64,000 nucleotides of DNA from an uncultured Ruminococcus sp. Lineage in GTDB: Bacteria > Bacillota > Clostridia > Oscillospirales > Ruminococcaceae. Within the stretch, counting starts at the first letter, position 1. Each line of letters opens with the position of its first letter. The stretch covers positions 24,335 to 88,334 of the forward strand of contig CACZPI010000125.1 in the NCBI GenBank assembly GCA_902783005.1. Reading direction: 5' to 3'. Under the pieces are notes generated by a model. The model saw only the letters and a list, made by a program, of their open reading frames with translations. It was not told the DNA's origin and did not search any database. Positions 197 through 17,409 of the stretch are shown piece by piece. Made by a program: the position numbers and the translations under genes.

Positions 197-448
197 CTAT
201 CCTACTTTTGTGAATTTCCGGAATCCCCGGATGCGCGTCAAACGCCTTTGCAGGTCACGCAGACCTGTCTCATCCGTCTGCACTTTGCCGCGGAATACGG
301 AAATTTCTGCGCCGCTGCGCTCCCGGATGACCCGTGCCTGATGGGAAACAATCGGGATCCCTGCACGCTGCATAGCAGCCGCAACCTCATTGACCACGCC
401 GACCCGGTCACGGATCCGGATCTCGATTTCATACAGATTTGCTGACAT
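197..448 (-). CDS. ACT-domain protein
   Basis: This 83-residue protein is a single ACT domain. It starts with the typical beta strand (LYEIEIRIRDRVGVVNEVAAAM), where Asp-Arg-x-Gly-Val-x-x-x-Val is the usual ligand-loop pattern. Stand-alone ACT proteins bind amino acids or other small ligands, and the ligand here cannot be read from sequence. I chose the ATG at 448 because GGAGGTG lies 8 nt upstream; in-frame starts further up have no ribosome site. It is monocistronic and convergent with the gene at the window edge. The family is clear, the role unknown. Confidence 0.8.
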   Translation of the reverse strand: MSANLYEIEIRIRDRVGVVNEVAAAMQRAGIPIVSHQARVIRERSGAEISVFRGKVQTDETGLRDLQRRLTRIRGFRKFTKVG

Positions 449-520
449 CTGCGTCACCTCCATGATTGATATAGCTCTATTGTACCAGATTTCCGCATTC
501 CTGTCCAATACCGGAAAGAA

Positions 521-555
521 ATCCCCTGTGATAGGTTTTTCCTATCACAGGGGAT
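521..555 (-). terminator. Terminator of the six-gene signalling operon
   Basis: A perfect 15-bp stem (521-535 with 541-555) has a 5-nt loop. It lies just after the stop codon of the last operon gene at 569. Confidence 0.75.
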
Positions 556-568
556 GCGTGTCAGAGGA

Positions 569-2395
569 TCAGAAGCCTCTTTTCTTCATCTGCTTTCGGA
601 AATCCGCGTCGATCTTGGCGGCCTTCTTCTTTTCCTTGGCAAGCCGCTTGAGCTCTGCTTCGGTGGCAGCCGCCTGATTGGCGGGTGTATTCTCATCATT
701 CATGAATGCCGACAAGCGCTGCCGGAATGCAGAACCTACGCCCTTTTTCGGAGCGGTCTGGGTTCCGTAGCCGGATTGTGCAACGGTGCTCTGGCCGGTG
801 TACTGACTGGACTGCCCGTCAAGGTACTGGCTGCCAAGATACCGGCTGCCTGTGCCCGTGCCGGGACGGCGCTGGCTGGCATACTGTGCGCCGGCCTGAT
901 AGCTGCTGACCTGCTGGGACTGCGATACATTCTGCTGACCCGGACGGAAGGTGTTGCCCTGCTGCCCCGGCTGGAAGGTGTTCATCTGCTGGGACTGCGG
1001 CGCATTCTGCTGACCCGGCTGGAAGGTGTTTGTCTGCTGGGGCTGCTGACCCGGACGGAAGGTATTACCCTGCATTCCGGGCTGGAAGGTGTTTGTCTGC
1101 TGGGGCTGCTGAACCGGTCGGAAGGTGGTACCCTGCATTCCGGGCTGGAAGCTGTTTGCCTGCTGGGGCTGCTGAACCGGTCGGAAGGTGGTACCCTGCA
1201 TTCCGGGCTGGAAGCTGTTTGTCTGCTGGGACTGTGCCATCGGCTGGGAGATGCTGACGCTCTGACCGGGGCGGAAGGTTCCGCCGCCCGGATGCCGCAT
1301 CTGACCGGGGCGAGCCTGGCTGGCATACATCTGCTGGCCGGGCATGGGCTGGCTTGCATACTGGGTGCTCTGCTGGCTCGGCATATTCTGGCTCTGCGGA
1401 CGCTCACTCATATAGCGCGGCTGTGTATTCTGGCGCATATGCGGCGGGAGCGCTGCATCGGAGTCCGGATTGATCGGCGCATCATAGAAGGGGTTGGTGT
1501 TCTCTGTCAGCTCCTCATCGGCCTGCTCGGCAAGCTCGGCTACTTCAAATCCGAATTGTGCCATCGGATTGTCTGCATCCACATCACCGGTAAATCCGGC
1601 CATCATGCTCTGGGCTTCCTCGTTGGACATGACACCGGAGGAAACCGGCTTCATCGGCTCCGGCTTCTCCTCGGGTGCGGGCTCTGCTTCCATCACCGGT
1701 GCAGCCTCTGTTTCAGGCGCTTCGGCAGCAAATTCGTTCTGCACCGGAATTTCTCCGGCATCGGGAGCTTCGGCAGCAAATTCGTTCTGTACCGGAATCT
1801 CCCCGGCAGCGGGAGCTTCGGCTGCAAATTCGTTCTGCACCGGAATCTCCCCGGCTGCGGGCGCTTCGGCGGCAAATTCGTTCTGTACCGGAATTTCCTC
1901 GGCTGCGGAAGCTGCGGCAGCGGGAGTCTCGTCTGTGACTGCTTCTTGTGCAGGCATTTGTGCCTGTTCTGCGTTGACGGCCGTTGTTTCCACGGTCGGA
2001 TCCGGCAGCGGAAGGCCGAGCAGGTCTGCTACAGGAACCGCATGATTGGCACCGTCAAGCACCTGTGTACGCAGGTTTTCCTGATTGATCCGCACCAGGA
2101 GCTGCAGGCAGCTTTCACACGGCTGGCTGACCGTCTTCCTTGCAAAGGAGATCGTGACCATTCTGTTTACACGGCTTTCGCCTTCCGGAACCATGGTCAT
2201 GATGGCGCCGAATTCCGGGCAAGAGGTCATGATATGCCCGTTCGAGATCTTCACGCTGGTAATCGCGCCGTAGACGGTTCCCTTGTCGGTCTGGAGAATG
2301 CAGCATTCCGCGTCACGCGCATCTGCGAGTGTCGGCTCAAGCGCCCGGATATTATCCATATAGCGCAGGGCGCGGTTGTAGAATCCTTTATCCAT
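569..2395 (-). CDS. Cytidine-deaminase-fold protein with Gln/Pro-rich repeat tail
   Basis: This 608-residue protein is the last gene of the operon. Residues ~30-105 follow the cytidine deaminase layout: a strand (ILQTDKGTVYGA), then Cys59-Pro60-Glu61 where the family has Cys/His-Ala-Glu, then Pro92-Cys93-x-x-Cys96. C59, C93 and C96 would bind zinc and E61 would be the proton shuttle. The rest is low-complexity: four ~16-residue repeats built on EIPVQNEFAAEAP, then Gln/Pro-rich repeats built on NTFQPGMQGNTFRPGQQ, then a basic tail rich in Lys and Arg. I start it at ATG 2395 (AGGCAGGT upstream) because the frame further 5' runs into the intergenic hairpins. Substrate and activity are unknown; it may be a binding or scaffold protein. 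The fold call is from motif spacing only. Confidence 0.65.
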   Translation of the reverse strand: MDKGFYNRALRYMDNIRALEPTLADARDAECCILQTDKGTVYGAITSVKISNGHIMTSCPEFGAIMTMVPEGESRVNRMVTISFARKTVSQPCESCLQLLVRINQENLRTQVLDGANHAVPVADLLGLPLPDPTVETTAVNAEQAQMPAQEAVTDETPAAAASAAEEIPVQNEFAAEAPAAGEIPVQNEFAAEAPAAGEIPVQNEFAAEAPDAGEIPVQNEFAAEAPETEAAPVMEAEPAPEEKPEPMKPVSSGVMSNEEAQSMMAGFTGDVDADNPMAQFGFEVAELAEQADEELTENTNPFYDAPINPDSDAALPPHMRQNTQPRYMSERPQSQNMPSQQSTQYASQPMPGQQMYASQARPGQMRHPGGGTFRPGQSVSISQPMAQSQQTNSFQPGMQGTTFRPVQQPQQANSFQPGMQGTTFRPVQQPQQTNTFQPGMQGNTFRPGQQPQQTNTFQPGQQNAPQSQQMNTFQPGQQGNTFRPGQQNVSQSQQVSSYQAGAQYASQRRPGTGTGSRYLGSQYLDGQSSQYTGQSTVAQSGYGTQTAPKKGVGSAFRQRLSAFMNDENTPANQAAATEAELKRLAKEKKKAAKIDADFRKQMKKRGF

Positions 2396-2451
2396 ATTGA
2401 TACCTGCCTTTCGGTAATAAATCTTGAGTATGTCTGTTTCTCGATACATAC

Positions 2452-2498
2452 GGCAGAGAGGGCTGCTGCGTCCTCTCTGCCCTGTGCATCGCACAGGG
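2452..2498 (-). other. Two adjacent hairpins in an operon gap
   Basis: The 114-nt gap between the GGDEF gene and the deaminase-like gene holds two perfect inverted repeats: GGCAGAGAGG (2452-2461) with CCTCTCTGCC (2472-2481), and CCCTGTGC (2480-2487) with GCACAGGG (2491-2498). Neither is followed by a U-tract on the minus strand. They look more like RNA processing or stability elements than a terminator. Confidence 0.5.
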
Positions 2499-2509
2499 GA
2501 AACCGGTTA

Positions 2510-3439
2510 TCAGCCGGCAGTGTGTTCGCTGAAGAAGATGGCGCGGTTCTTGCCGCCGATCTTTGCATTGTAGAGCGCGGTATCCGCAGCAGAAACCAGA
2601 GCCTCGGCAGTGGTGCCGTCATTCGGGAAGCTGGCAACGCCGTAGGACATAGCGATCGAGAAGTTGGTGCCGCCGACATTGAACGGCTCACCGAACAGAG
2701 TGCGAAGCTGCTCGGTCAGGTTGAGAATGTCAGCCTCGGTATGACGGCCGTCAATGATCATGCCGTATTCGTCGCCGCCGAGCTTGCCGAATTCGTAGTG
2801 ACCCTTGCAGTACTTGGAGAAGCGTGCGGAATACTCCTTGATGAGTGCATCGCCGACATCATGGCCGAAGTTGTCGTTGATCTGCTTGAAATCATCGGCA
2901 TCCATGAGCATGACCATGAAGGGCTGTGCCTGCTCCACCTTGGCAGCCAGGGACTCATTGAAGGCTGCGCGGTTCGGCAGACCGGTCAGACGGTCGGTGT
3001 AAGCGAGGGTACGCAGAGCCGCAGCCTGCTCTTCCTGTACACGGTTTGCCTCAATGAGCTGGTTGTAGGACTCGGTCAGCTCGTCATGCGCCTTCTCGGA
3101 ACGCGACAGGTAGGTGTAGAGGACGAAGAGTGTAATGATGGTTACCAGTGCGACCAGGACACCCGGCAGGGAGCTTGCACCGGCAGAGCCGCCGCGCGAA
3201 AAGATCTGTACCACGACGGTAGCAGCATTGATCAGGTTCAGGATCATGGCTGTAATGAAGCCGCGCTTGCGGTTGGTGACAACCATGACGGTGCACAGCA
3301 GAACGCCGACCTGTGCAATGATGCCGTTAAGAGCATTCAGACCGTTGCGGGCGAACTGACCCTGGAGAGCGAACAGCGCCAGGTAAATAAGGACACAGAT
3401 GATCAGCACGGCAAGATTGCCGCTTTTTTTATTATTCAT
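2510..3439 (-). CDS. Membrane-anchored GGDEF-domain protein (predicted diguanylate cyclase)
   Basis: This 309-residue protein has four hydrophobic segments (about residues 9-28, 38-54, 61-80 and 93-111), a coiled-coil linker (~112-145) and a GGDEF domain (~147-305). The domain keeps the DADDFKQINDNFGHDVGD metal/nucleotide region and the signature reads GGDEY at 221-225, a Tyr-for-Phe change that other active-looking members also carry. No RxxD inhibitory site is visible upstream of the signature. The predicted reaction is 2 GTP to c-di-GMP at the inner membrane. It is gene 5 of the operon, with AGAGG and ATG 3439 as start. Its presence ties the kinase/phosphatase cassette to cyclic-dinucleotide signalling, which is inference from context. 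Confidence 0.85.
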   Translation of the reverse strand: MNNKKSGNLAVLIICVLIYLALFALQGQFARNGLNALNGIIAQVGVLLCTVMVVTNRKRGFITAMILNLINAATVVVQIFSRGGSAGASSLPGVLVALVTIITLFVLYTYLSRSEKAHDELTESYNQLIEANRVQEEQAAALRTLAYTDRLTGLPNRAAFNESLAAKVEQAQPFMVMLMDADDFKQINDNFGHDVGDALIKEYSARFSKYCKGHYEFGKLGGDEYGMIIDGRHTEADILNLTEQLRTLFGEPFNVGGTNFSIAMSYGVASFPNDGTTAEALVSAADTALYNAKIGGKNRAIFFSEHTAG

Positions 3440-3484
3440 GATGATTACCTCTTTTCAGATTTTGATGTCAGTTGACGAATTCTG

Positions 3485-4435
3485 TCAGGATTCTTCGCGC
3501 ATACGCATGGTATTCTTGTAGCGCTGCTTCTGGATCTTGGCGGCATGCTCTGCTGCACGGATCTCTGCACGCATCTTGTTGCGCTCCACAGCCTCCTTCA
3601 GCGAGGAGGTGTTTTCCTCAAGAAGTTCCTGATCCCATGCGCAGGACAGGGAAATATCGTCCTGCGTACCGAAGTTCGTGCGCTTGGTAAGATTGCGCAG
3701 CACGATGGCATCGAAGGCAGCCGGCTTATCCAGGTGCGATGCGATGATGGAATGGTAGTCCAGGAAATCCTCGCTGCTGCGGAAGGATGTAAACAGACCG
3801 TCCGTGGAAACAAAGACAGCCAGTGCCTTGGCCGGGATGAAAAAGCTGTTGAACAGGTCGATGGCATTGGAATTGCACAGCGATGCCGTCAGATTGGCGG
3901 GAGCGGTTTCATCGTCCACGATGGGCATTTCCGCCTCGGCATCCTCGTCAATTACGACCAGGCTGCCGTCACCGATCTGGAGGCCGAAGGTGAATTCCGA
4001 TCCGATGATCGCAGCGATCAGCGTGGTGCCGTAGATCGCCTCGACCTTGAGCTTGGCAAATTCATCCTCCGTGAAGGGGAGCTTTTCCTCTTCTGTAACG
4101 GGATTGGCTGCAAAGTGGCTACGTACCGCATTGTTCCAGCGGCAGATAATGTTTTTTTCGATCTTGCGGATGAGCCTTGTCGGATTCTCCTCGAAGAGCT
4201 CCTCAAAGGTTTCTGCGTCCGCATAGTAGGCGCTGATGGCCTCGACGGTTGCCTGCACGGCGAACTTGGAGCCGAGGTCACTGCGGAAATGCTTCTTGCT
4301 GCCGTGTCCGTCGGCTACGACAGCGAGCGCATAATGTTCGTTGGCCTGAAAATCAGACCAGTCCTGACAAACGGTTCCTTTCGCAACGTGGCTTGCGCCG
4401 ATAATGGTGTGAAACAGACCGTGAAATGTTGACAT
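3485..4435 (-). CDS. PP2C-family Ser/Thr protein phosphatase
   Basis: This 316-residue protein opens like a PP2C (GLFHTIIGASHVAKG..CQDW) and carries the metal-binding DGHGS motif at residues 42-46. A C-terminal FGTQDDISLSCAWD matches the last PP2C aspartate motif (G-x-x-D-D). The final ~40 residues are basic and helical. The family removes phosphate from Ser/Thr using two metal ions; the natural partner is the kinase two genes upstream. A strong AGGAGGTG site precedes ATG 4435, 36 nt after the VWA stop. The kinase-VWA-PP2C set is the known TerY-P-like arrangement. Confidence 0.85.
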   Translation of the reverse strand: MSTFHGLFHTIIGASHVAKGTVCQDWSDFQANEHYALAVVADGHGSKKHFRSDLGSKFAVQATVEAISAYYADAETFEELFEENPTRLIRKIEKNIICRWNNAVRSHFAANPVTEEEKLPFTEDEFAKLKVEAIYGTTLIAAIIGSEFTFGLQIGDGSLVVIDEDAEAEMPIVDDETAPANLTASLCNSNAIDLFNSFFIPAKALAVFVSTDGLFTSFRSSEDFLDYHSIIASHLDKPAAFDAIVLRNLTKRTNFGTQDDISLSCAWDQELLEENTSSLKEAVERNKMRAEIRAAEHAAKIQKQRYKNTMRMREES

Positions 4436-4471
4436 GGGGCACCTCCTTTCCCGAATGCACCACCGCCGGGA

Positions 4472-5272
4472 TTACCAGCCGGTGTCAAAGGGAATGGCGT
4501 CGCCGTACCCCTCGGATTTGACCATCTCCTGGATCTGCTGACCGAGGAGCTTCTGCTTTGTCTCGTAAACGTCCTCCATGCCCAGCTCGTGGTCGGAATC
4601 CGCAAGCGTCATGCTCTTGGAGCCGATCTGCGAGGAGGTCACGGCAATAATCTTGATCAGGTGTGCGAGCTGGCCGCCGGAGTAGGCATGTACGACGGTA
4701 TCCTTGGTGCCGGTGAATTCGGCGAGCATCTCGTCGTTGGCCTCCTTGCCGATGCCCAGTGCGGTCTTCAGGCCGTACTTGTACCAGCTGTTCTGCTGGA
4801 GGATGCGCAGGCCTTCCTTGTAGTCATCCGACGGATAGCCGTCTGTCATCAGGAAGATGACCGGTGCAAAGGACAGGGACGGGGAATTGAGGAAGTAATT
4901 GCGCGACATACGCACGGAGAGCTCCTTGAAGGCAGCACCCATGCTGGTCACACCGTCCGCACGCAGACGGGTCCATTCAAACTCCTCAATGGAGATCGGT
5001 TCGGAATACATCCACATGACACTGTTCGAGAAGGTCAGTACAGCGACCTTGACATCGGTATCCGCTTCACCGACGCGGCGGATCTCCGGAATGAGCTCCT
5101 CCATGACGGTATTGAGCTCGCCCATCTTGGTACCCTTCATACTGCCGGAGGTGTCGATCAGGAAGAAGATGACGAGACTTTTGCGGGAAACGCCGGTCGC
5201 ATTTAGCGGATCATCGTCGTCAAAGTCCATGATTTCCGCTTCGTAATCGGGATTCAGCGTTGCATTATCCAT
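4472..5272 (-). CDS. TerY-like von Willebrand factor A (VWA) protein
   Basis: This 266-residue protein has a complete MIDAS metal site: DTSGS at residues 40-44 (Asp40, Ser42, Ser44), Thr109 in the GVTSMG loop, and Asp144 in LMTDGYPSDD. An acidic N-terminal stretch precedes the domain. VWA proteins bind partner proteins through the metal ion. TerY-type members travel with a PP2C phosphatase and a kinase, and exactly those two genes flank it. No signal peptide or membrane segment is visible, so it should be cytoplasmic. AAAGGAG precedes ATG 5272. Confidence 0.85.
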   Translation of the reverse strand: MDNATLNPDYEAEIMDFDDDDPLNATGVSRKSLVIFFLIDTSGSMKGTKMGELNTVMEELIPEIRRVGEADTDVKVAVLTFSNSVMWMYSEPISIEEFEWTRLRADGVTSMGAAFKELSVRMSRNYFLNSPSLSFAPVIFLMTDGYPSDDYKEGLRILQQNSWYKYGLKTALGIGKEANDEMLAEFTGTKDTVVHAYSGGQLAHLIKIIAVTSSQIGSKSMTLADSDHELGMEDVYETKQKLLGQQIQEMVKSEGYGDAIPFDTGW

Positions 5273-5315
5273 ACTTATGAAACTCCTTTACTCAGATTTT
5301 TGCAGGAACAGAGGA

Positions 5316-6692
5316 TCACTTGTTTTCTTCGGAGATGGCATCCTCATAGATGTAAGCCTTGACACCGCCGAAGTCGATCGCGATACCCTGCCAGAGGGGA
5401 AGTCCCTTATCCGGTGCGACCGGGTAGTACTTACCGTCGGGCATTCTGGCCTGCCATACGTCCTTGCTCAGATTTTTCAGGCCGAGCATACCTGGCTTGA
5501 GCTTGTTCTCGACGAGCTCGGTGGTGACAGTGGTGTAGTCATCCGAACCGATCGTGGTCTGGCATGCATACAGCTTGCAGCCGATATACAGCGGCAGACG
5601 GTAGTCGAGATGTGTGAAGGCAAGGCTGGCAAATTCGCTGCCGCACTTCGGACAAATGAAGAAGTGCGTGGACGGATCCTCCTTGAAGGTGGAGGAGAAA
5701 TTGCTTCTGCCGCACTTGCAGGTGATGATCTCCGAGCGCAGACGGATGAAGAGCTTCTGCCATTCATTCTCGATGATGCGCTTGTTCGGCTCGGCAATGC
5801 CGGTCGTGAAGGACTTGATGAATGCTTCACGGATGTATTCCGGATAGATCTTCCAGAACTTGATGACATTGTCGTGAATGCCGCGTACCGGCCGGTTGGT
5901 CGTATTCTCCGGGTCATACACGAATACGGCTTCCTTGCCGTAGTGGCGCAGCTCGGAGCTTTCTGTCAGGCAGATGTCCTTGACGACCTTTTCGCCCTCC
6001 ATCGGATCGCCGCGGAACAGCAGCTTGAAGAGGACAACGGCAAGGGAATACTTGTCGGTCTGCACGTTCGGCTTTTCGATGCCGCGCACGACCTCCGGCG
6101 CCATGTAGCCGGGCTTGCCGCCGATGCCGAAGTTGGCACCGTCCGGTGCGATGTTGTCGCAGTCGCACACGAGGATGTCGCCGGTGTTGACATTGATGAA
6201 GAAGCCGCCGTCATTCAGATCCTGGTAGCTCTTGCCGGCTCTGTGAAGCTGACGGAATGCCGTAACGATATTGATGGCAGCCGTTACCATTGCAAAGAGG
6301 GACTTGAACTGCACCGGTGTCTTGCTGGCACGGCCGGTCAGCGGATCAATACCGAGCTTGTAGGTGTTGAGGATGTCCACGAACGAATCGAAATTCTGCG
6401 GGCGCACGTCCATCAGGTAGCCGAATCCGCCGGTTTCGATCGGCTTGGTCAGGTATTTCGGCCACAGGAACAGCCTGGACGGCGAGCCGTCCTTGATGTT
6501 GTTTTCGATGTTCTTGCGGAACGCCTGCGGATTCTTGATCTTGTCCACATCGTACCATTTGAGCGCATACTTCATGTCATTGAATTCCACGAGGTATACG
6601 ATACCCTGGCCGCCGCTGCCGAGCTCCTGCAGAACCTTGGCGGCGCCGCCGTACTCCATTTCGATATACTGACCGATCTGAAGTTCAACCAT
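5316..6692 (-). CDS. Ser/Thr protein kinase with zinc ribbon and FHA-like C-terminus
   Basis: This 458-residue protein has a kinase domain at ~15-320: glycine loop GSGGQG (25-30), ATP lysine K45, catalytic Asp158 in an unusual SYQDLND in place of HRDLKxxN, a metal motif CDCDN (176-180) in place of DFG, and APE at 198-200. These variants are like the kinases of TerY-P triads. A four-cysteine zinc ribbon follows (CKC at 325-327, CPKC at 347-350). Residues ~368-450 (GLKNLS..W..DG..Y.V.P) resemble a degenerate FHA fold, which would read phospho-threonine; that call is weaker. It has no membrane segment or PASTA repeats, unlike PknB/PrkC. Confidence 0.82.
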   Translation of the reverse strand: MVELQIGQYIEMEYGGAAKVLQELGSGGQGIVYLVEFNDMKYALKWYDVDKIKNPQAFRKNIENNIKDGSPSRLFLWPKYLTKPIETGGFGYLMDVRPQNFDSFVDILNTYKLGIDPLTGRASKTPVQFKSLFAMVTAAINIVTAFRQLHRAGKSYQDLNDGGFFINVNTGDILVCDCDNIAPDGANFGIGGKPGYMAPEVVRGIEKPNVQTDKYSLAVVLFKLLFRGDPMEGEKVVKDICLTESSELRHYGKEAVFVYDPENTTNRPVRGIHDNVIKFWKIYPEYIREAFIKSFTTGIAEPNKRIIENEWQKLFIRLRSEIITCKCGRSNFSSTFKEDPSTHFFICPKCGSEFASLAFTHLDYRLPLYIGCKLYACQTTIGSDDYTTVTTELVENKLKPGMLGLKNLSKDVWQARMPDGKYYPVAPDKGLPLWQGIAIDFGGVKAYIYEDAISEENK

Positions 6693-6803
6693 TTGAAACT
6701 CATTCCTTTCAGTCTATATTCTCTATCTGCATACGGACAAAAGTCCGCTGCATGACACTGCGCTTTCAGGCAGCGCAGAAATATCCGTGTAAGCTGACGC
6801 GTG

Positions 6804-7841
6804 TCAGATACCAACGCCCGGCTTGAGGATCTTGCAGCGCAGACCGTTCTCCTGGCAGAACTTGTGTACATAGGAGTTCTCGTAGCAGCCGATGGTCAGG
6901 CTGGTGCAGAGCTTGAAGGCGTCGTCATCAATGTACTTGACGCTGTTGGTCAGGAACAGGGACTTGAGGTTTGCGCAGCCCTGGAATGCTTCGCTGCCGA
7001 TGCTGCTGATGGTGGAGGGAAGCTCCACGACCTCCAGGGAGGAGCAGAATGCGAAGGTGTTCTCCTCGATCTCTGTCACACCGGACGGGATCTTGATCAT
7101 GGAGAGCTTGGTGCACGACTGGAAGGCACCCTTGCCGATGCGCTTGACATTGGCAGGGATCTCAATGTTCTTCAGACGCTTGCACTCGGAGAAGGCGAAT
7201 TCACCAATGACGAACAGTGTTGACGGCAGCTCGACCGTCTTGAGCCACCCGAAGCCGTCGAAGGTGAATGCGTCGAGCGTCGTGTAGCCGTCATCCACAC
7301 GGATGGTGCCCTTCAGACGGCTCTTGGCAGCATTCTTGGCTGAGAAGACACGCTCGGAAATGGGAGCAGCCGGCTTGGCAGGCGCCTTCGGAGCGGCTGC
7401 GGCGGGCGCGGCACCGTTGTTGAATGCCTGACGCTGCGGAGAGGTCAGACCCGGACGGGATGCCGGCTGAGCGGGTGCAGCGGGTGCGGCAGCGGCAGCG
7501 GCAGGTGCAGCAGCCGGTGCCGGGGGAACGTAGTTCCATTCCATCATGTAGGTGAAGCATTCGAGCACTGCCTCAACTGCGGAATCTGCGAGGAACATTT
7601 CGCCGGACATATACTCTCTCGACTTCATGATCGCGATTTTCTGGTTGTCCTCGCGGCGCATCGTCGCCAGAACACCGTTGGTCAGCACATGCTTGAGCAG
7701 TCTGCGCTCCCGGTCGTTGTCGGGGATGTAGTCACTCATCAGGGCGATGAATTTATTGGTGTCGTTGAGCACCTCATCGCCATGCTCACGCACGATCTCG
7801 TAGAGCGCGTGCTTGACCGCATTTGTGTTAAAATCCGCCAT
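6804..7841 (-). CDS. BspA-type leucine-rich-repeat protein, first gene of signalling operon
   Basis: This 345-residue protein has a helical N-terminal domain (~1-108), an Ala/Pro linker (~110-165) and about six BspA-type LRR_5 units of ~23 residues (~175-330), such as L-x-x-I-x-I-P-x-x-V-x-x-I-G-x-x-A-F. There is no signal peptide, so unlike surface BspA proteins it is probably cytoplasmic. The N-terminal ~100 residues look like a small helical module of unknown type. It heads the operon behind a consensus promoter, with AGGAGG 10 nt before ATG 7841. It could be the sensor, scaffold or kinase substrate of the system. Confidence 0.75.
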   Translation of the reverse strand: MADFNTNAVKHALYEIVREHGDEVLNDTNKFIALMSDYIPDNDRERRLLKHVLTNGVLATMRREDNQKIAIMKSREYMSGEMFLADSAVEAVLECFTYMMEWNYVPPAPAAAPAAAAAAPAAPAQPASRPGLTSPQRQAFNNGAAPAAAAPKAPAKPAAPISERVFSAKNAAKSRLKGTIRVDDGYTTLDAFTFDGFGWLKTVELPSTLFVIGEFAFSECKRLKNIEIPANVKRIGKGAFQSCTKLSMIKIPSGVTEIEENTFAFCSSLEVVELPSTISSIGSEAFQGCANLKSLFLTNSVKYIDDDAFKLCTSLTIGCYENSYVHKFCQENGLRCKILKPGVGI

Positions 7842-8010: not shown

Positions 8011-8039
8011 ATTATAACATATATACGGCATCCTGTCAA
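8011..8039 (-). promoter_or_regulatory. Consensus sigma-A promoter of the signalling operon
   Basis: Reading on the minus strand, TTGACA (8039-8034) and TATAAT (8016-8011) are both perfect and separated by 17 nt. The leader to the LRR gene would be about 160 nt. Confidence 0.85.
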
Positions 8040-8148: not shown

Positions 8149-8177
8149 TTGCAATTGTGTAAAGAATATGCTATAAT
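8149..8177 (+). promoter_or_regulatory. Promoter of the binding-protein/GGDEF pair
   Basis: TTGCAA (8149-8154) and a perfect TATAAT (8172-8177) are 17 nt apart. Expected transcription start is near 8184. Confidence 0.8.
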
Positions 8178-8248
8178 AGGACATGTATGTACCGGATCGG
8201 TCATCACAAAACGGAGGATGAATGATTTACAAAGGAGGAAACAAGTAC

Positions 8249-9337
8249 ATGAACAAACGCATCAGAAGCATTCTGGCTGCACTGCTTGCGGCGGCGATGC
8301 TGACGGGATGCTCGGCGCAGACCCAAGAGCCGCAGATGAAGATCTATGTCATCTGCAAGAGCCAGGATCCCTATTGGGACACCACCAAGGCGGGAGCCCT
8401 GGAAGCAGGCGAGGAGATGAATCTCGATGTGATCTATGAGGCGCCTGCATCCGAGGAGGAAATTGACACCCAGATCCAGATGATCAACGACGCACTGGCA
8501 GACGGTGCGCAGGCGATCGTGCTTGCGCCGCTGGATACGGATGAGCTGAACGACACGCTGCGCAACGCCGTTTCGCAGAATGTCCCGGTGCTGACCATTG
8601 ACTCGGATGTCAGCTTCACCGGCAGACGCGCCTGCCTGAGCACGCAGAATTTGTCCGCGGGCGCCATTGCGGCCAGAGCGGCAGCCGAAATGATCGGCGG
8701 CGAGGGCGAGGTCGGCATTATCTGCCACAAGGCGGATGCACAGACGGCGATCGAGCGCATGGGCGGCTTTGTGGACGAGCTTTCCGGCAAGTCGGCAGAC
8801 ACCGTTCCGGATGCACCGCGTTCACCGGAGGGCGGGATGCCTGAGGGAAATCCGCCGGAGGGTGAACGTCCGGAGGGAGAGAAGCCGGCTGAGACTTCGG
8901 CAGATCAGGACAATGCCGGGTATCCGGATATTACGATCGCTGAGACGAAGTATTGCGAAGGCAATGTCGATCTGTCCCGCGAGGGCGCGATCCAGCTCAT
9001 CACCGAGCATCCGGATCTCAAGGCGATCTATGCGACGAACCAGCCGGGTACGGTCGGTGTATGCCAGGCCATTGATCAGCTTGGCATGCAGGATCAGATC
9101 ACGGTAGTCGGATTCGACTATTTCGACGGCGCAGATGCGTATATCGAGAGCGGCATTCTGGATGCGGTCATTTCGCAGAATCCCTATAATATGGGCTACC
9201 TCGGCGTTCGTTATGCCAGAAAGCTCGTGGAGGGCGGAATAGTAGAATCCAATGTAGACACGGGTGCCACGCTGATTACCAAGGATAACCTGAATGACGA
9301 GGATATCCGTTGGCTCGTGAATCCGACAGGAAAGTAA
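8249..9337 (+). CDS. Periplasmic-binding-protein-like lipoprotein (Peripla_BP_4, ribose-binding type)
   Basis: This 362-residue protein has a lipoprotein signal with a lipobox ending LTGC (Cys21). The mature part follows the type I sugar-binding fold of RbsB/XylF-like proteins (YVICKSQDPYWDTTKAGALEAGEE; GAQAIVLAPLDTD; VVGFDYFDGADAYI). A Pro/Glu-rich insert (PEGGMPEGNPPEGERPEGEK) interrupts the C-terminal lobe side. No ABC transporter genes are nearby; the next gene, 12 nt on, is a membrane GGDEF-like protein. It therefore probably senses a ligand rather than importing it. AAAGGAGG sits before ATG 8249. The ligand is unknown. Confidence 0.82.
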   Translation: MNKRIRSILAALLAAAMLTGCSAQTQEPQMKIYVICKSQDPYWDTTKAGALEAGEEMNLDVIYEAPASEEEIDTQIQMINDALADGAQAIVLAPLDTDELNDTLRNAVSQNVPVLTIDSDVSFTGRRACLSTQNLSAGAIAARAAAEMIGGEGEVGIICHKADAQTAIERMGGFVDELSGKSADTVPDAPRSPEGGMPEGNPPEGERPEGEKPAETSADQDNAGYPDITIAETKYCEGNVDLSREGAIQLITEHPDLKAIYATNQPGTVGVCQAIDQLGMQDQITVVGFDYFDGADAYIESGILDAVISQNPYNMGYLGVRYARKLVEGGIVESNVDTGATLITKDNLNDEDIRWLVNPTGK

Positions 9338-9349
9338 GGAGGGAGAGCA

Positions 9350-10543
9350 ATGGCAGGTACAGCAACAGAACAGGGACGCCGCGTCGGCAGAGCGCTGAGC
9401 GTGGCGGGCGTTGTATTCGTCCTGATTATGGCACTGAATATGGTCGTGGAGAATCTGGTCTATGTCCGCAGCCGCCGGGTCTATGACAGCAATATGGAGG
9501 CCGTGCAGAACATGAGCGCCATGAATGCCGAGCTTGCTTCGGTCAATGAGCGCGTTGTCCTGATGGCAGCGGGTATGAGCGATGAGCAGACGCTTGAGGA
9601 GATTGACAAGTCCTTTGAGAATATCCATGCGCTCAAGCAGACATTCCTGGCCGGGGAAGCGTACTCGGACGTGGAGCTGCGCCGGTTCATGCAGGCAAGC
9701 TACGCGATCCAGGGCTTTGAACGGAAGATCGAGGAGGTCAGGGACACCCTCCCGACTGCCGGCTATGCCAAGGCACGCGACATTTATGAACAGGAGATCT
9801 CTCCTTTGAAGGCATGCGCTTCCGAAATGCTGGAAGCGACCATCGAGATCGGCCAGACCAATGCCGAGGCAAATGTCCACAACAGTACCATCATGCACGG
9901 CATTGCACAGCTGATCCTGATTCTGATTACCGTGCTGGTGCTTGTGGCAATGACGATCTTCGGACGCCGCCAGATCCGCGCACTGTATCAGATCCAGGAG
10001 AAGGAGAAGGAGCTTGCCGCGGCAGAAGGACGCATCAACCGCACACGCCAGAAGGTATTCGATGCCGCGTCCATGAACATCCTGACCAATATGCAGAACC
10101 GCTACGGCCTGGAAACACGCCTTGAGGAGCTGCTCGAGGAGGGACAGTTCTATGTGGGCGTCTTTGACATCGACAATTTCCGCGAGATCAACGATACCTA
10201 CGGCTACAATTTCGGTGATGAATGCCTGGCGGCGATCGCGGATCGCCTGCGTACAGCCTACGGAGATCAGACAGAGCTGTTCAATGTTGCCGCCGATGAA
10301 TTCTGCGTGATCCTTGACAATACGCTCAGCGACATGCAGGCCCAGCAGCTTGCTGAGGAGGTGCGCCAGAGCATCGGCAGCCCGATCGTGATCGACGGCG
10401 TTGTGATCCAGAATACGGTCTCCGCATCGCTCTGCCATGTGCTGCCGAGCGGTCTGGATGTGACGGAGCTGCTCATGCGGCTTGACAGTGCAATGCATGC
10501 GGCCAAGCGCGACGGCGGCAACAGACTGAATTACATCCGCTGA
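9350..10543 (+). CDS. Membrane sensor with periplasmic four-helix domain and AADEF (degenerate GGDEF) output
   Basis: This 397-residue protein has TM1 at ~17-38, a helical extracytoplasmic domain (~40-183), TM2 at ~184-204, a coiled-coil linker (~210-240) and a GGDEF-type domain (~243-397). The FDIDNFREINDTYGYNFGDE region is well kept, but the signature at 314-318 is AADEF instead of GGDEF. Loss of both glycines normally removes cyclase activity, so it may act as a GTP or c-di-GMP receptor or partner. It is co-transcribed with the binding lipoprotein (AGGAGGGAG, 12-nt gap), which suggests a ligand relay across the membrane. Confidence 0.83.
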   Translation: MAGTATEQGRRVGRALSVAGVVFVLIMALNMVVENLVYVRSRRVYDSNMEAVQNMSAMNAELASVNERVVLMAAGMSDEQTLEEIDKSFENIHALKQTFLAGEAYSDVELRRFMQASYAIQGFERKIEEVRDTLPTAGYAKARDIYEQEISPLKACASEMLEATIEIGQTNAEANVHNSTIMHGIAQLILILITVLVLVAMTIFGRRQIRALYQIQEKEKELAAAEGRINRTRQKVFDAASMNILTNMQNRYGLETRLEELLEEGQFYVGVFDIDNFREINDTYGYNFGDECLAAIADRLRTAYGDQTELFNVAADEFCVILDNTLSDMQAQQLAEEVRQSIGSPIVIDGVVIQNTVSASLCHVLPSGLDVTELLMRLDSAMHAAKRDGGNRLNYIR

Positions 10544-15264: not shown

Positions 15265-15987
15265 ATGAATACCAGGTATCTGATCCGGATCGCAGCGCTG
15301 CTGACGGCGGTGGCGCTGACAATTGCAGGCTCCTGCTATGCGGTAAGCCGGACGCGCAGCCGGCTCCTTGAAACCGGAACGGCAGCCGCACAGAAGCAGG
15401 TCATCATACTGGATGCGGGTCACGGCGGCGCAGACGGCGGATGCAGCTCAGCGGCAGGGGATGTGGAAAAGCACATCAACCTTGCCGTTCTCCTCGATCT
15501 CAAGGCCATGCTCCAGGCATCCGGCTATGAGGTGCTGACGACGCGGGAAACGGATGTATCCATTCATGATCCCGGCACGGAAGGCCTTGCCAACCAGAAG
15601 CGTTCGGATATGGACAACCGGCTCGCACTGTTCAATTCCGTGGACGGGGCGATCTGTGTCTCCATCCATCAGAATCAGTTTACCGATCCGAAGTACAGCG
15701 GTGCGCAGATGTTCTATTCCGAGACGAACCGGCACAGCGCGGAGCTTGCACAGACGCTCCAGTCTCAGTTTGTGGCATTTCTCCAGCCGGAGAATCACCG
15801 TGAGATCAAGCTGTGCGGCAAGGAGCTGTTTCTCTGCTATTTCAGTGAGAATCCGACTGTCATGGCAGAATGCGGCTTCCTCTCCAATCCCGAAGAGGCC
15901 GCTCTTCTGGTGACGGAGGACTACCAGCAAAAGGTCGCCTTCACGCTGTATGCCGGCATCACGCAGTACTGCGCGGCGCAGAAATGA
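15265..15987 (+). CDS. N-acetylmuramoyl-L-alanine amidase (Amidase_3), CwlD-like
   Basis: This 240-residue protein has an N-terminal membrane/signal segment (~7-27) and an Amidase_3 domain. Zinc ligands are visible: His in DAGHGG, Glu in GDVEKHIN and His in VSIHQN; the catalytic Glu is in MAECGFLSN. The enzyme cleaves the bond between N-acetylmuramic acid and L-alanine in peptidoglycan. Size and layout match CwlD, which prepares spore cortex peptidoglycan for delta-lactam formation; a PdaA-like deacetylase and spoIIA operon elsewhere in the window make that role plausible. AGGTG 8 nt upstream favours ATG 15265 over upstream in-frame codons. Confidence 0.87.
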   Translation: MNTRYLIRIAALLTAVALTIAGSCYAVSRTRSRLLETGTAAAQKQVIILDAGHGGADGGCSSAAGDVEKHINLAVLLDLKAMLQASGYEVLTTRETDVSIHDPGTEGLANQKRSDMDNRLALFNSVDGAICVSIHQNQFTDPKYSGAQMFYSETNRHSAELAQTLQSQFVAFLQPENHREIKLCGKELFLCYFSENPTVMAECGFLSNPEEAALLVTEDYQQKVAFTLYAGITQYCAAQK

Positions 15988-15990
15988 AGC

Positions 15991-16022
15991 ATGCCCCCGG
16001 CGTTCCCATCCGCCGGGGGCAT
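15991..16022 (+). terminator. Hairpin after the amidase gene
   Basis: A 12-bp stem pairs ATGCCCCCGGCG (15991-16002) with CGCCGGGGGCAT (16011-16022). There is no U-tract, so termination may be inefficient. Confidence 0.6.
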
Positions 16023-16055
16023 CCCATGAAGATGCGCATTTCAGGCCTTGGACTG

Positions 16056-16084
16056 TTGACAAACTTTGTGGAACATGATATAAT
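16056..16084 (+). promoter_or_regulatory. Perfect consensus promoter of the GIY-YIG gene
   Basis: TTGACA (16056-16061), a 17-nt spacer and TATAAT (16079-16084) are all consensus. Confidence 0.9.
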
Positions 16085-16152
16085 GAGGAGACAGCGATTC
16101 CCGACGGAATGCTGACAATTACGAGATCCAAACAGGAAAGGATGAATGTAAA

Positions 16153-17409
16153 ATGCCGGATAAAGAAGAAGCCCTGGAGATGGATTCAAAATGGAGCGAG
16201 GATGATAAGGCACGATTCATAGGTCGTTTCTCGGATGGTAACAAGAAAGGCAAGGCGGGTGATTCCGATGAAGCGAAAAGCGTTAATGACAGGTACTATG
16301 TCTATGCCCTGTGCGATGACGGTGTTCCCTTTTACATCGGCAAGGGAACGGGTGAGCGGTGCTTCCAGCATCAGGAATCACTGGCTGATCTGCTCAAGGA
16401 ATATCAAGAAGAAATGGAGGCAATGGATGAGGAAGAGCGGGCATTGTTCACGGAAAAACTGAACAATGAACTTTCGGACAAGCATAAAAGAATACAGGAA
16501 TCCATACAGAAAGAAACCTTCGACATTGCCATTATCAAATTCGGTCTGACAGAGCATGAAGCATTCATGTGCGAATCGGACACGATCAATACCATGCGGC
16601 TTCTGGACGTTGAGCTGACAAATGCCGTCAACGGGCACGGAAGCCGGATGGAAAAGGCAACCGGCGAGCGTGTCAAGGCCAGATTCATGGATGATTTTCT
16701 GACAGAGTGCTGCCCGCCGTCTGCCAGCCTTGCAGAGCTGTATGACTTCCTGAATGCACCGGATTTTCCCTTTGACCCGAAGAAGGATGATGTGGTTTTC
16801 ATCTTCTATAACTGGTTTTATCCGTACTGCGAGACGGTGGACGACCACTGGGACAGCGTCCGCGGATGCTGGACACTGGGCAAGGAGAAAGCCGAACGCT
16901 GCAAATATGTTTTTGCGATGCACAACAGCATCATCAAGCACATTTTCAAGGTCAGAGCCGACGGGGAGACCCGCACCGATTTTCAGAAGCTTGTCGATGT
17001 GACCAGCCCTCTGAAGCCGATCGAGGGAGACGTTATTTCTCGGATTGAAGGTAGAAAGGGAGATATTGACCTGGCTGAACGGCTCCTGGCCCTTTATGAA
17101 AAGGAGCCGGAGCTGCGGGACATCAAGGGAGAAAAGAAAAAGAAAGAGGCGATCGTGGCAAAGCTGAAGGCAGCGTATCCGGATATGAAGGATCTGGAGC
17201 CGAAAAAACTGAACAGAGGCTTCTTTGCATGCGACTGGCGCGATTACGAAGAGGATTCAGATTTGCGGGCGCTCAGGGAACGGTTTCAGAATTGCCTGAT
17301 CAGCAAGAAAGAACTGAAAATGAAGCAGGGTCCCTTTACCACCCTGCTCCACAATACCCGTAAGAACGACCCCGTGAAGGCACATATTAAGACATCCCGA
17401 AAAGACTGA
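16153..17409 (+). CDS. LEM-3-like GIY-YIG nuclease-domain protein
   Basis: This 418-residue protein has a GIY-YIG module at ~48-165: strand YYVYAL (48-53), PFYIGKGTGERCFQH (59-73) with Tyr61, Arg69 and His73, then a helical insert and ESDTINTM.. with a Glu in the expected catalytic position and LTNAVNGHG. This arrangement is that of the LEM-3/ANKLE1 branch rather than UvrC or homing nucleases. The C-terminal ~240 residues are charged, Lys-rich and unassigned. It is a single-gene unit between its own promoter and terminator. Nuclease activity is inferred; the biological role (repair, defence or other) is unknown. Confidence 0.72.
   Translation: MPDKEEALEMDSKWSEDDKARFIGRFSDGNKKGKAGDSDEAKSVNDRYYVYALCDDGVPFYIGKGTGERCFQHQESLADLLKEYQEEMEAMDEEERALFTEKLNNELSDKHKRIQESIQKETFDIAIIKFGLTEHEAFMCESDTINTMRLLDVELTNAVNGHGSRMEKATGERVKARFMDDFLTECCPPSASLAELYDFLNAPDFPFDPKKDDVVFIFYNWFYPYCETVDDHWDSVRGCWTLGKEKAERCKYVFAMHNSIIKHIFKVRADGETRTDFQKLVDVTSPLKPIEGDVISRIEGRKGDIDLAERLLALYEKEPELRDIKGEKKKKEAIVAKLKAAYPDMKDLEPKKLNRGFFACDWRDYEEDSDLRALRERFQNCLISKKELKMKQGPFTTLLHNTRKNDPVKAHIKTSRKD

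Follow-up and report, generated by a model that had tools for sequence, protein, structure and literature searches.

A kinase-VWA-PP2C operon of Ruminococcus and a candidate adaptor domain found beside related kinases

Introduction

What does a kinase-VWA-PP2C triad sense, and on what does it act? Such triads occur in many bacteria and, to our knowledge, the answer is largely unknown. The question is raised here by an operon in a 64,000-nucleotide stretch of contig CACZPI010000125.1 from an uncultured Ruminococcus sp.; this whole stretch is referred to below as the window. Genes for a serine/threonine kinase, a von Willebrand factor A (VWA) protein and a protein phosphatase 2C (PP2C) lie between a head gene for a leucine-rich repeat (LRR) protein and a tail gene for a deaminase-fold protein, along with a gene for a membrane GGDEF protein. 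A preliminary description of this DNA had taken the six genes for one phospho- and nucleotide-signalling system.

The operon belongs to a conserved system of Ruminococcus and close relatives, the parts of which differ in status. The sequences show a constant core of adaptor-LRR head protein, kinase, VWA protein, PP2C and deaminase-fold tail protein, with the GGDEF protein as an optional member. We identified two features that the preliminary description overlooked: a domain of ~95 residues in the head protein, and a divergent gene pair at 8222-10543 encoding a periplasmic binding protein (PBP) and another GGDEF protein. The domain, a candidate adaptor, recurs beside related kinases. We tentatively propose, at somewhat below an even chance, that the operon is a phosphorylation switch within a wider set of kinase-centred systems that share this one adaptor domain.

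The operon and its conservation

All six open reading frames (ORFs) were recovered on the minus strand, at the places and in the order first described, and five of the six products exceed Pfam curated cut-offs (LRR_5, Pkinase, VWA, PP2C_2 and GGDEF). Gaps between the genes are 36-114 bases. The features, in window coordinates, are:

8011..8039, minus strand: operon promoter, sigma-70-type with extended -10 (consensus match only)
6804..7841, minus strand: head LRR gene; N-terminal helical domain, disordered linker, BspA-type LRR
5316..6692, minus strand: Ser/Thr kinase with C-terminal zinc ribbon and beta-rich tail (Pkinase, E 1e-10, Pfam)
4472..5272, minus strand: VWA protein with complete metal-ion-dependent adhesion site (MIDAS) (PF00092, E 2.6e-9)
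3485..4435, minus strand: PP2C phosphatase (PF13672, E 4.5e-35)
2510..3439, minus strand: membrane GGDEF protein, optional member (PF00990, E 8.5e-38; membrane helices by eye from sequence)
2396..2509, minus strand: structured spacer between GGDEF gene and tail gene (RNA fold)
569..2395, minus strand: tail gene; deaminase-fold domain, long disordered repeats, basic C-terminus
521..555, minus strand: intrinsic terminator (15-pair stem, T-rich tail)

A kinase alignment was used to scan GTDB species genomes; it found 487 relatives, and the best 80 of the 487 (loci L062-L141) were compared. Kinase identity is at least 72% in all 80. Their record titles name Ruminococcus, Oscillospiraceae, Clostridia and Clostridiales, with strains of R. 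flavefaciens and R. albus included, and Alistipes once. The six-gene order recurs across relatives in which the kinase is 72-83% identical, with the GGDEF slot optional, and because the same order is found at this divergence, it is far beyond chance. An LRR gene precedes the kinase in 77 of the 80 loci, and the remaining three contigs begin at, or no more than 90 bases from, the kinase match; the LRR gene is thus a constant member of the operon, in which it had been placed from the start. PP2C is reached in 73 loci (the other seven end before it, and six of the 73 end inside PP2C or GGDEF). The tail gene follows PP2C on the same strand in all 67 contigs that are long enough, and counts over 68 loci given below comprise these 67 and the window. 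L136 and L138, an identical operon from one assembly, are counted twice; loci from the same genus largely repeat the L062-L141 contigs and were kept out of the counts of 80, 67 and 68. In a set of 40 long loci, each of the LRR, kinase, VWA and PP2C families is present in 36-37 loci; 34 have GGDEF proteins (both kinds), 31 the tail protein, 29 the PBP and 22 the next family. In these counts the ORF caller loses some genes, the window's kinase among them.

Within the window's genus (38 genomes), a kinase orthologue was identified in 28. The tail gene matches at E 1e-41 or better in 26 of these 28 and in none of the other ten, two of which give weak matches (E near 1e-8 and 1e-7). Kinase and tail gene are on different contigs in six of the 26, so their linkage is not visible there. 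In the two kinase-bearing genomes that miss the tail gene the operon is cut at a contig end and the assemblies are 77% and 72% complete; one of them (G024) has a paralogue-like tail match only (2e-17). Kinases of at least 64% identity were found in 27 of 297 genomes of the family sample, in two of 394 of the order sample (both of the same family), and, in the class sample of 391, only in the window's own genome. Within these samples the full system occurs in one family only, which from the record titles we take to be Ruminococcaceae.

A candidate adaptor domain in the head protein

The LRR region of the head protein is well supported (PF13306, E 6e-36). Its AlphaFold2 (AF2) model, with a mean predicted local distance difference test score (pLDDT) of 84.5, has helices at residues 6-99, a low-confidence stretch at 111-160, and then the repeats. 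The best Foldseek matches are bacterial LRR structures, in a search dominated by the repeats. The helical N-terminus, ~95 residues in length, is the domain of interest:

7542..7826, minus strand: candidate adaptor domain, residues ~6-100 of the head protein, common to proteins beside related kinases

Neither Pfam nor NCBIfam has a name for it in any protein scanned, and nothing in the PDB matched its profile except 31 positions of an engineered protein (E 1.5e-4) and a ribosomal protein (E 0.56).

When the first ~100 residues of the LRR proteins were made into a profile, it also picked up proteins encoded next to paralogous kinases in other families. A model built solely from the LRR rows matched 13 ORFs (E<1e-3) of the 1,319 in 30 kinase-paralogue loci, and these 13 come from 9 loci. 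The 626 control ORFs, drawn from the window and its genus and not from the families of the test loci, gave no match even at E<10. Iteration of the model extended the matches to 27 ORFs in 19 of the 30 loci. Kinase, VWA and PP2C occur together in 23 of these loci, and in 16 of the 23 an adaptor protein lies no more than 3.9 kb away. In three further loci that share one genus code (L170, L171 and L187), an adaptor-Sel1 protein is found 1.1-1.5 kb from the kinase, with no VWA or PP2C. Because the domain stays beside kinases that lack VWA and PP2C, the kinase is a possible docking partner. Where scanned, the kinases of these three loci are also flanked by a GNAT or HAD-type gene.

The order sample yielded 19 adaptor matches in 15 of 394 genomes, 16 of them no more than 7.1 kb from a related kinase, and the domain occurs in 13 of 15 genomes with a kinase relative; this test is partly circular, as 10 of the 15 matched genomes had supplied rows of the model. 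The phylum sample (378 genomes, some seen before) is a cleaner, out-of-sample test, since both matched genomes were new and outside the model. Adaptor matches were found in these two other genomes only, and each of the four matches lies beside a kinase-VWA-PP2C triad. With an N-terminal domain common to proteins beside many related kinases, the LRR head gene is no foreign element in the triad.

The modules fused behind the adaptor domain, all above Pfam cut-offs, are:

Sel1: L211, L221, L170, L171, L187, L218
BspA LRR: window, L213, L222, L245
RCC1: L179
UvrD: L217
DEAD helicase: L213
DUF6273: L176, two proteins
DUF1292: L216
DUF4190: L220
FGE-type: L249

No fused module was identified by Pfam in the adaptor proteins of L172 and L215 and in two of L248. 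Four copies of the domain are present in each of L176 and L216. It was not detected on 112 kinases at E<=10, and the VWA and PP2C sequences in the operon tree gave no match either. A zinc-ribbon-like Cys motif precedes the helical domain in some adaptor proteins (the L092 LRR gene, L221 5738-6916, L245 7805-10249). At L249 6000-7253 we observed a TIR-zinc ribbon-Sel1 protein, three ORFs from the adaptor-FGE protein and triad.

The deaminase-fold tail protein

The zinc site of the window tail protein is complete (C59, E61, C93 and C96, numbered from Met1; CxE...PCxxC). Taken alone, its deaminase match is weak: 14.8 bits against a cut-off of 25 in Pfam, and E 1.4e-5 with 25.2 bits against a cut-off of 74 for NCBIfam PRK05578. 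The tail-family profile matches blasticidin-S deaminase 3oj6 at E 4e-4. Across the 68 loci (with L115, which is cut short, scored as zinc-lacking) the site is complete in 33 tail proteins, and 35 are without at least one zinc or catalytic residue. This state has changed at least seven times on the operon tree, which was built from kinase, VWA and PP2C by a quick method with Shimodaira-Hasegawa-like approximate likelihood ratio (SH-aLRT) support only. Because the site is complete in only 33 loci, deamination cannot be the general job of the tail protein, and we rejected a general deaminase mechanism. Thus, the deaminase-like tail gene of the preliminary description proves to be a constant member, with zinc and catalytic residues that are often incomplete. 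The set includes the diverged tails of L113, L123, L130 and L137 and excludes downstream paralogues in L126 and L139.

What stays is the C-terminal part. A C-terminal AKEKKKxAK-like motif is kept in 57 of 60 full-length tail proteins, and inspection by eye shows close variants of it in the remaining three. The tail is rich in Q, P, G, S, N and aromatics, which make up 0.40-0.66 of residues. NPF motifs are present in 43 of the 60, that is in 26 of 29 zinc-lacking and 17 of 31 zinc-complete proteins. The GGDEF gene is present in 27 of 33 zinc-complete loci and 11 of 35 others; the idea that losing the one is causally tied to losing the other was dropped, as only five independent pairs lie on starred branches.

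A further deaminase-fold protein, in which the zinc site is complete and the C-terminal tail is of LFGxLF type, was found beside a different GGDEF gene, with no triad seen, at:

L188, 7138-7938
L190, 7541-8356
L191, 5403-6203

Two of the deaminase paralogues, from L188 and L190, score above the Pfam cut-off. The preliminary description had regarded GGDEF and deaminase-like genes apart from the triad as a sign that the genes are neighbours only. This is borne out in part: these three paralogues are so placed, and in L182 a GGDEF-GGDEF-deaminase set faces the triad from the other strand. The tail gene proper follows the kinase. In L126 (the contig of L185) and L139, a deaminase paralogue begins 1.6 and 1.4 kb, respectively, beyond the tail gene and is followed by a GGDEF-like match. 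Past the tail gene, 22 of 40 long loci encode, on one strand or the other, a protein of ~177 amino acids that is apparently a two-helix membrane protein (e.g., L104 ~15772-16305).

The optional GGDEF gene

The operon GGDEF gene is absent in 30 of the 68 loci and present as one copy in 36, and of the remaining two loci one has four copies and the other seven; in L076, L090 and L092, scored as one copy, the gene seems shortened (gap ~0.6-0.7 kb). Its presence has changed at least six times on the operon tree. The GGDEF enzyme is therefore not supported as the fixed member that had been described, and a fixed six-gene unit with an obligatory cyclic-dinucleotide enzyme was rejected.

The signature of the window protein reads GGDEY, and DADDFK is also present. 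GG[DE]E[FY] was identified in 24 of 50 operon GGDEF proteins, and the first Gly is replaced in 15 of the 50. RxxD, the motif of the GGDEF inhibitory site, was not seen in an alignment of 18 GGDEF proteins. L103 (13295-20047) has seven tandem GGDEF genes from PP2C to the tail gene, several with altered signatures (five in the 18-protein alignment). The L182 locus has a GGDEF-GGDEF-deaminase set on the opposite strand, facing the triad. The window genome, which is 88% complete, encodes 21 GGDEF and 10 EAL matches over cut-off, and no PilZ match was found in it.

Kinase, VWA and PP2C proteins

Kinase residues K45, D158 and D177 and the four zinc Cys are conserved in 81 of 81 orthologues. The kinase domain itself is above the Pfam cut-off; zinc-ribbon Pfam matches are below cut-off only. 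The zinc ribbon that had been described is nevertheless upheld by its four Cys. For the "FHA-like" tail Pfam gives no FHA match; the AF2 model, with a mean pLDDT of 63 and thus of medium quality, shows beta-rich structure over residues ~356-447 (block pLDDT 79-90), which may or may not be an FHA domain. With this model the best 50 of 1993 Foldseek matches are all kinases. The catalytic-loop Asn is replaced by Gly in all 81 orthologues and kept in 23 of 31 paralogues. At L169 (8516-12562), a kinase paralogue of 55% identity is found with PP2C, phosphomannose isomerase and TerD; Ala stands in place of the catalytic-loop Asp in this paralogue, which is therefore possibly a pseudokinase.

The MIDAS of the VWA protein (D40, S42, S44, T109 and D144) is invariant in 11 of 11 aligned proteins, and is thus complete as first reported. 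Its identity as TerY-like, as against other VWA proteins, rests on operon context. The metal-binding residues of PP2C (D42, D156, D212, D259 and D260) are invariant in 10 of 10.

Transcription signals and neighbouring genes

The operon promoter (8039-8011) has 12 of 12 consensus bases, a 17-nt spacer and TG before the -10, and with the terminator it bears out the boundaries originally drawn. No further promoter-like site of at least 10/12 is listed on the minus strand from 8011 to 2510. Sites of 9/12 precede the kinase gene (6807-6780) and are found where the GGDEF gene starts (3488-3459 and 3458-3431), and given these, internal promoters may exist. The spacer RNA (2396-2512, minus strand) folds with a z of -4.66, none of 200 shuffles being equally stable, and has strong hairpins without a T-run; these could be a processing or attenuation element. 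An Rfam search of the window found tRNAs only. An ACT-domain gene (197-508, minus strand) lies just beyond the terminator, with a promoter-like site (507-479) at its start; it is near the operon in only some relatives.

Upstream of the operon, the divergent pair comprises:

8149..8177, plus strand: promoter-like site before the pair (10/12 consensus bases, TG before -10)
8222..9337, plus strand: periplasmic sugar-binding-type protein with lipoprotein-like start, divergent (PF13407, E 2.5e-49)
9350..10543, plus strand: GGDEF protein paired with the binding protein, conserved neighbour (PF00990, E 1.8e-25)

Of 53 loci with 4 kb or more of upstream sequence, 42 have the pair; it is divergent in 40 of these and co-directional in two. 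It is not in the flank covered in the other 11, two of which are R. albus strains.

Interpretation

We predict that the head protein uses its N-terminal helical domain to dock onto the kinase or the triad, and that the LRR behind this domain recognises a partner or signal; in other systems the same domain would bring Sel1, RCC1, FGE-type, helicase or membrane modules instead. Kinase and PP2C would then control how far a target is phosphorylated. The likeliest target is the tail protein, in which the disordered tail and basic C-terminal motif appear to stay while the catalytic site decays. The VWA protein may be a MIDAS-dependent assembly platform, and the GGDEF proteins would link the switch to cyclic di-GMP (c-di-GMP) in the lineages that have them. 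More broadly, the ~95-residue domain could define a large class of kinase-VWA-PP2C switches across Bacillota into each of which one or more recognition modules are plugged, with the kinase as a possible docking partner, and in Ruminococcus a deaminase fold could have been recruited as well and be turning repeatedly into a non-enzymatic scaffold or substrate; we hold this view with slightly less than even confidence.

Several observations weigh against the proposed switch. No adaptor protein was found in 7 of the 23 full-triad loci, or in 11 of the 30 loci overall, and the choice of control ORFs noted above limits the specificity test. Three of the 19 order-sample matches are without a nearby related kinase: G358 has none in 19 kb, the G465 match is weak (29 bits), and in G589 the triad is on another contig. 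Conversely, G625 and G635 of that sample have a kinase relative and no adaptor domain. The kinase may be atypical, because its catalytic-loop Asn is Gly throughout the orthologues. Finally, the window tail protein, given its complete deaminase site, may itself be enzymatic.

Of the alternatives, the one suggested by the preliminary description is that a nucleotide messenger is made or edited, with GGDEF enzyme and deaminase acting on nucleotides under regulation by the triad. It would fit the complete zinc site in the window and in 33 tail proteins overall, the many GGDEF and EAL domains of the genome, and the zinc-complete paralogue beside a GGDEF gene with no triad seen. We nonetheless consider it unlikely, since 35 tail proteins have lost zinc or catalytic residues and kept gene place and tail, 30 loci do without the GGDEF gene, and fewer than half of the operon GGDEF proteins have the GG[DE]E[FY] signature. 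A local c-di-GMP hub, in which the PBP/GGDEF pair senses an external sugar and operon GGDEF proteins relay this through phosphorylation, would account for the frequency of the pair and for the arrays of four and seven GGDEF copies; the loci where the pair was not seen (R. albus among them), the same 30 loci and the lack of a PilZ match in the genome make it doubtful.

Defence against phage, in the manner of published stand-alone TerY-P-like modules, also seems improbable. TerY-P modules occur in defence loci (PMC11090510), and related triads have adaptor-helicase fusions, with one near the TIR-Sel1 protein. However, PADLOC matches only a stretch of the kinase domain and, marginally, the LRR protein (E 0.058), and gives no match to the VWA, PP2C, GGDEF or tail proteins at E<=0.1. 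The gene order and, mostly, the sugar-sensor-type neighbour also appear to be kept in the lineage, unlike patchy defence islands. That the genes are conserved neighbours without joint function we regard as very unlikely. The weak promoter-like sites inside the cluster and the GGDEF and tail genes on the other strand in L182 would agree with it, but the operon families, and to a lesser degree the PBP, stand above the next family in the long loci, and kinase and tail gene are present or absent together in the genus.

If the phosphorylation switch is the correct reading, the shared adaptor domain, with its visible recognition modules, makes the sensing and targets of the triad a testable question. 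The tail protein, its gene always in the same place, supplies deaminase folds both with and without a complete zinc site, a natural series that is useful for studying the role of the fold once catalysis is gone. Among the hosts of the system are R. albus and R. flavefaciens, both well known for degrading cellulose in the rumen.

Comparison with known systems

The published parts of TerY-P (VWA, PP2C and a kinase with a zinc ribbon; PMC11090510) are all present in the window with their key residues, which agrees with the first identification of the triad, and the L169 kinase paralogue is accompanied by TerD. Unlike that triad, the window operon adds the adaptor-LRR head, the deaminase-fold tail and optional GGDEF genes. 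Linkage to ter genes is frequent, not universal, in TerY-P. TerC and TerD genes had been reported absent; for TerD this holds, with no match in the 88% complete window genome, and TerC was not searched. In the literature compared, parts of papers in some cases, we found no GGDEF- or deaminase-bearing triad and no description of the adaptor domain; the main TerY-P paper (Anantharaman 2012) lies outside this comparison, and a prior description of either is possible.

The blasticidin-S/cytidine deaminase fold is a likely relative of the tail protein, given the profile match to 3oj6 and the CxE...PCxxC of the window; the tail protein differs in its long disordered tail, basic C-terminus and repeated loss of the zinc site.

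The actinobacterial GAP1-N2 systems (PMC7159879, section 29) have the same kinase architecture (kinase-zinc ribbon-beta-rich), PP2C and a stand-alone vWA. The window operon is without such a GTPase or FNIII gene by Pfam, and that section names no adaptor-LRR or deaminase-fold partner. The effector-associated domains (EADs) of bacterial conflict systems (PMC7159879) are alike in being small helical domains with varied fused modules beside a constant core. They differ in that no copy of our domain was found on kinase, VWA or PP2C, and Pfam scans gave no EAD match. In their logic, switches that carry the adaptor domain may be regarded as a bacterial counterpart to LRR- and adaptor-based receptors.

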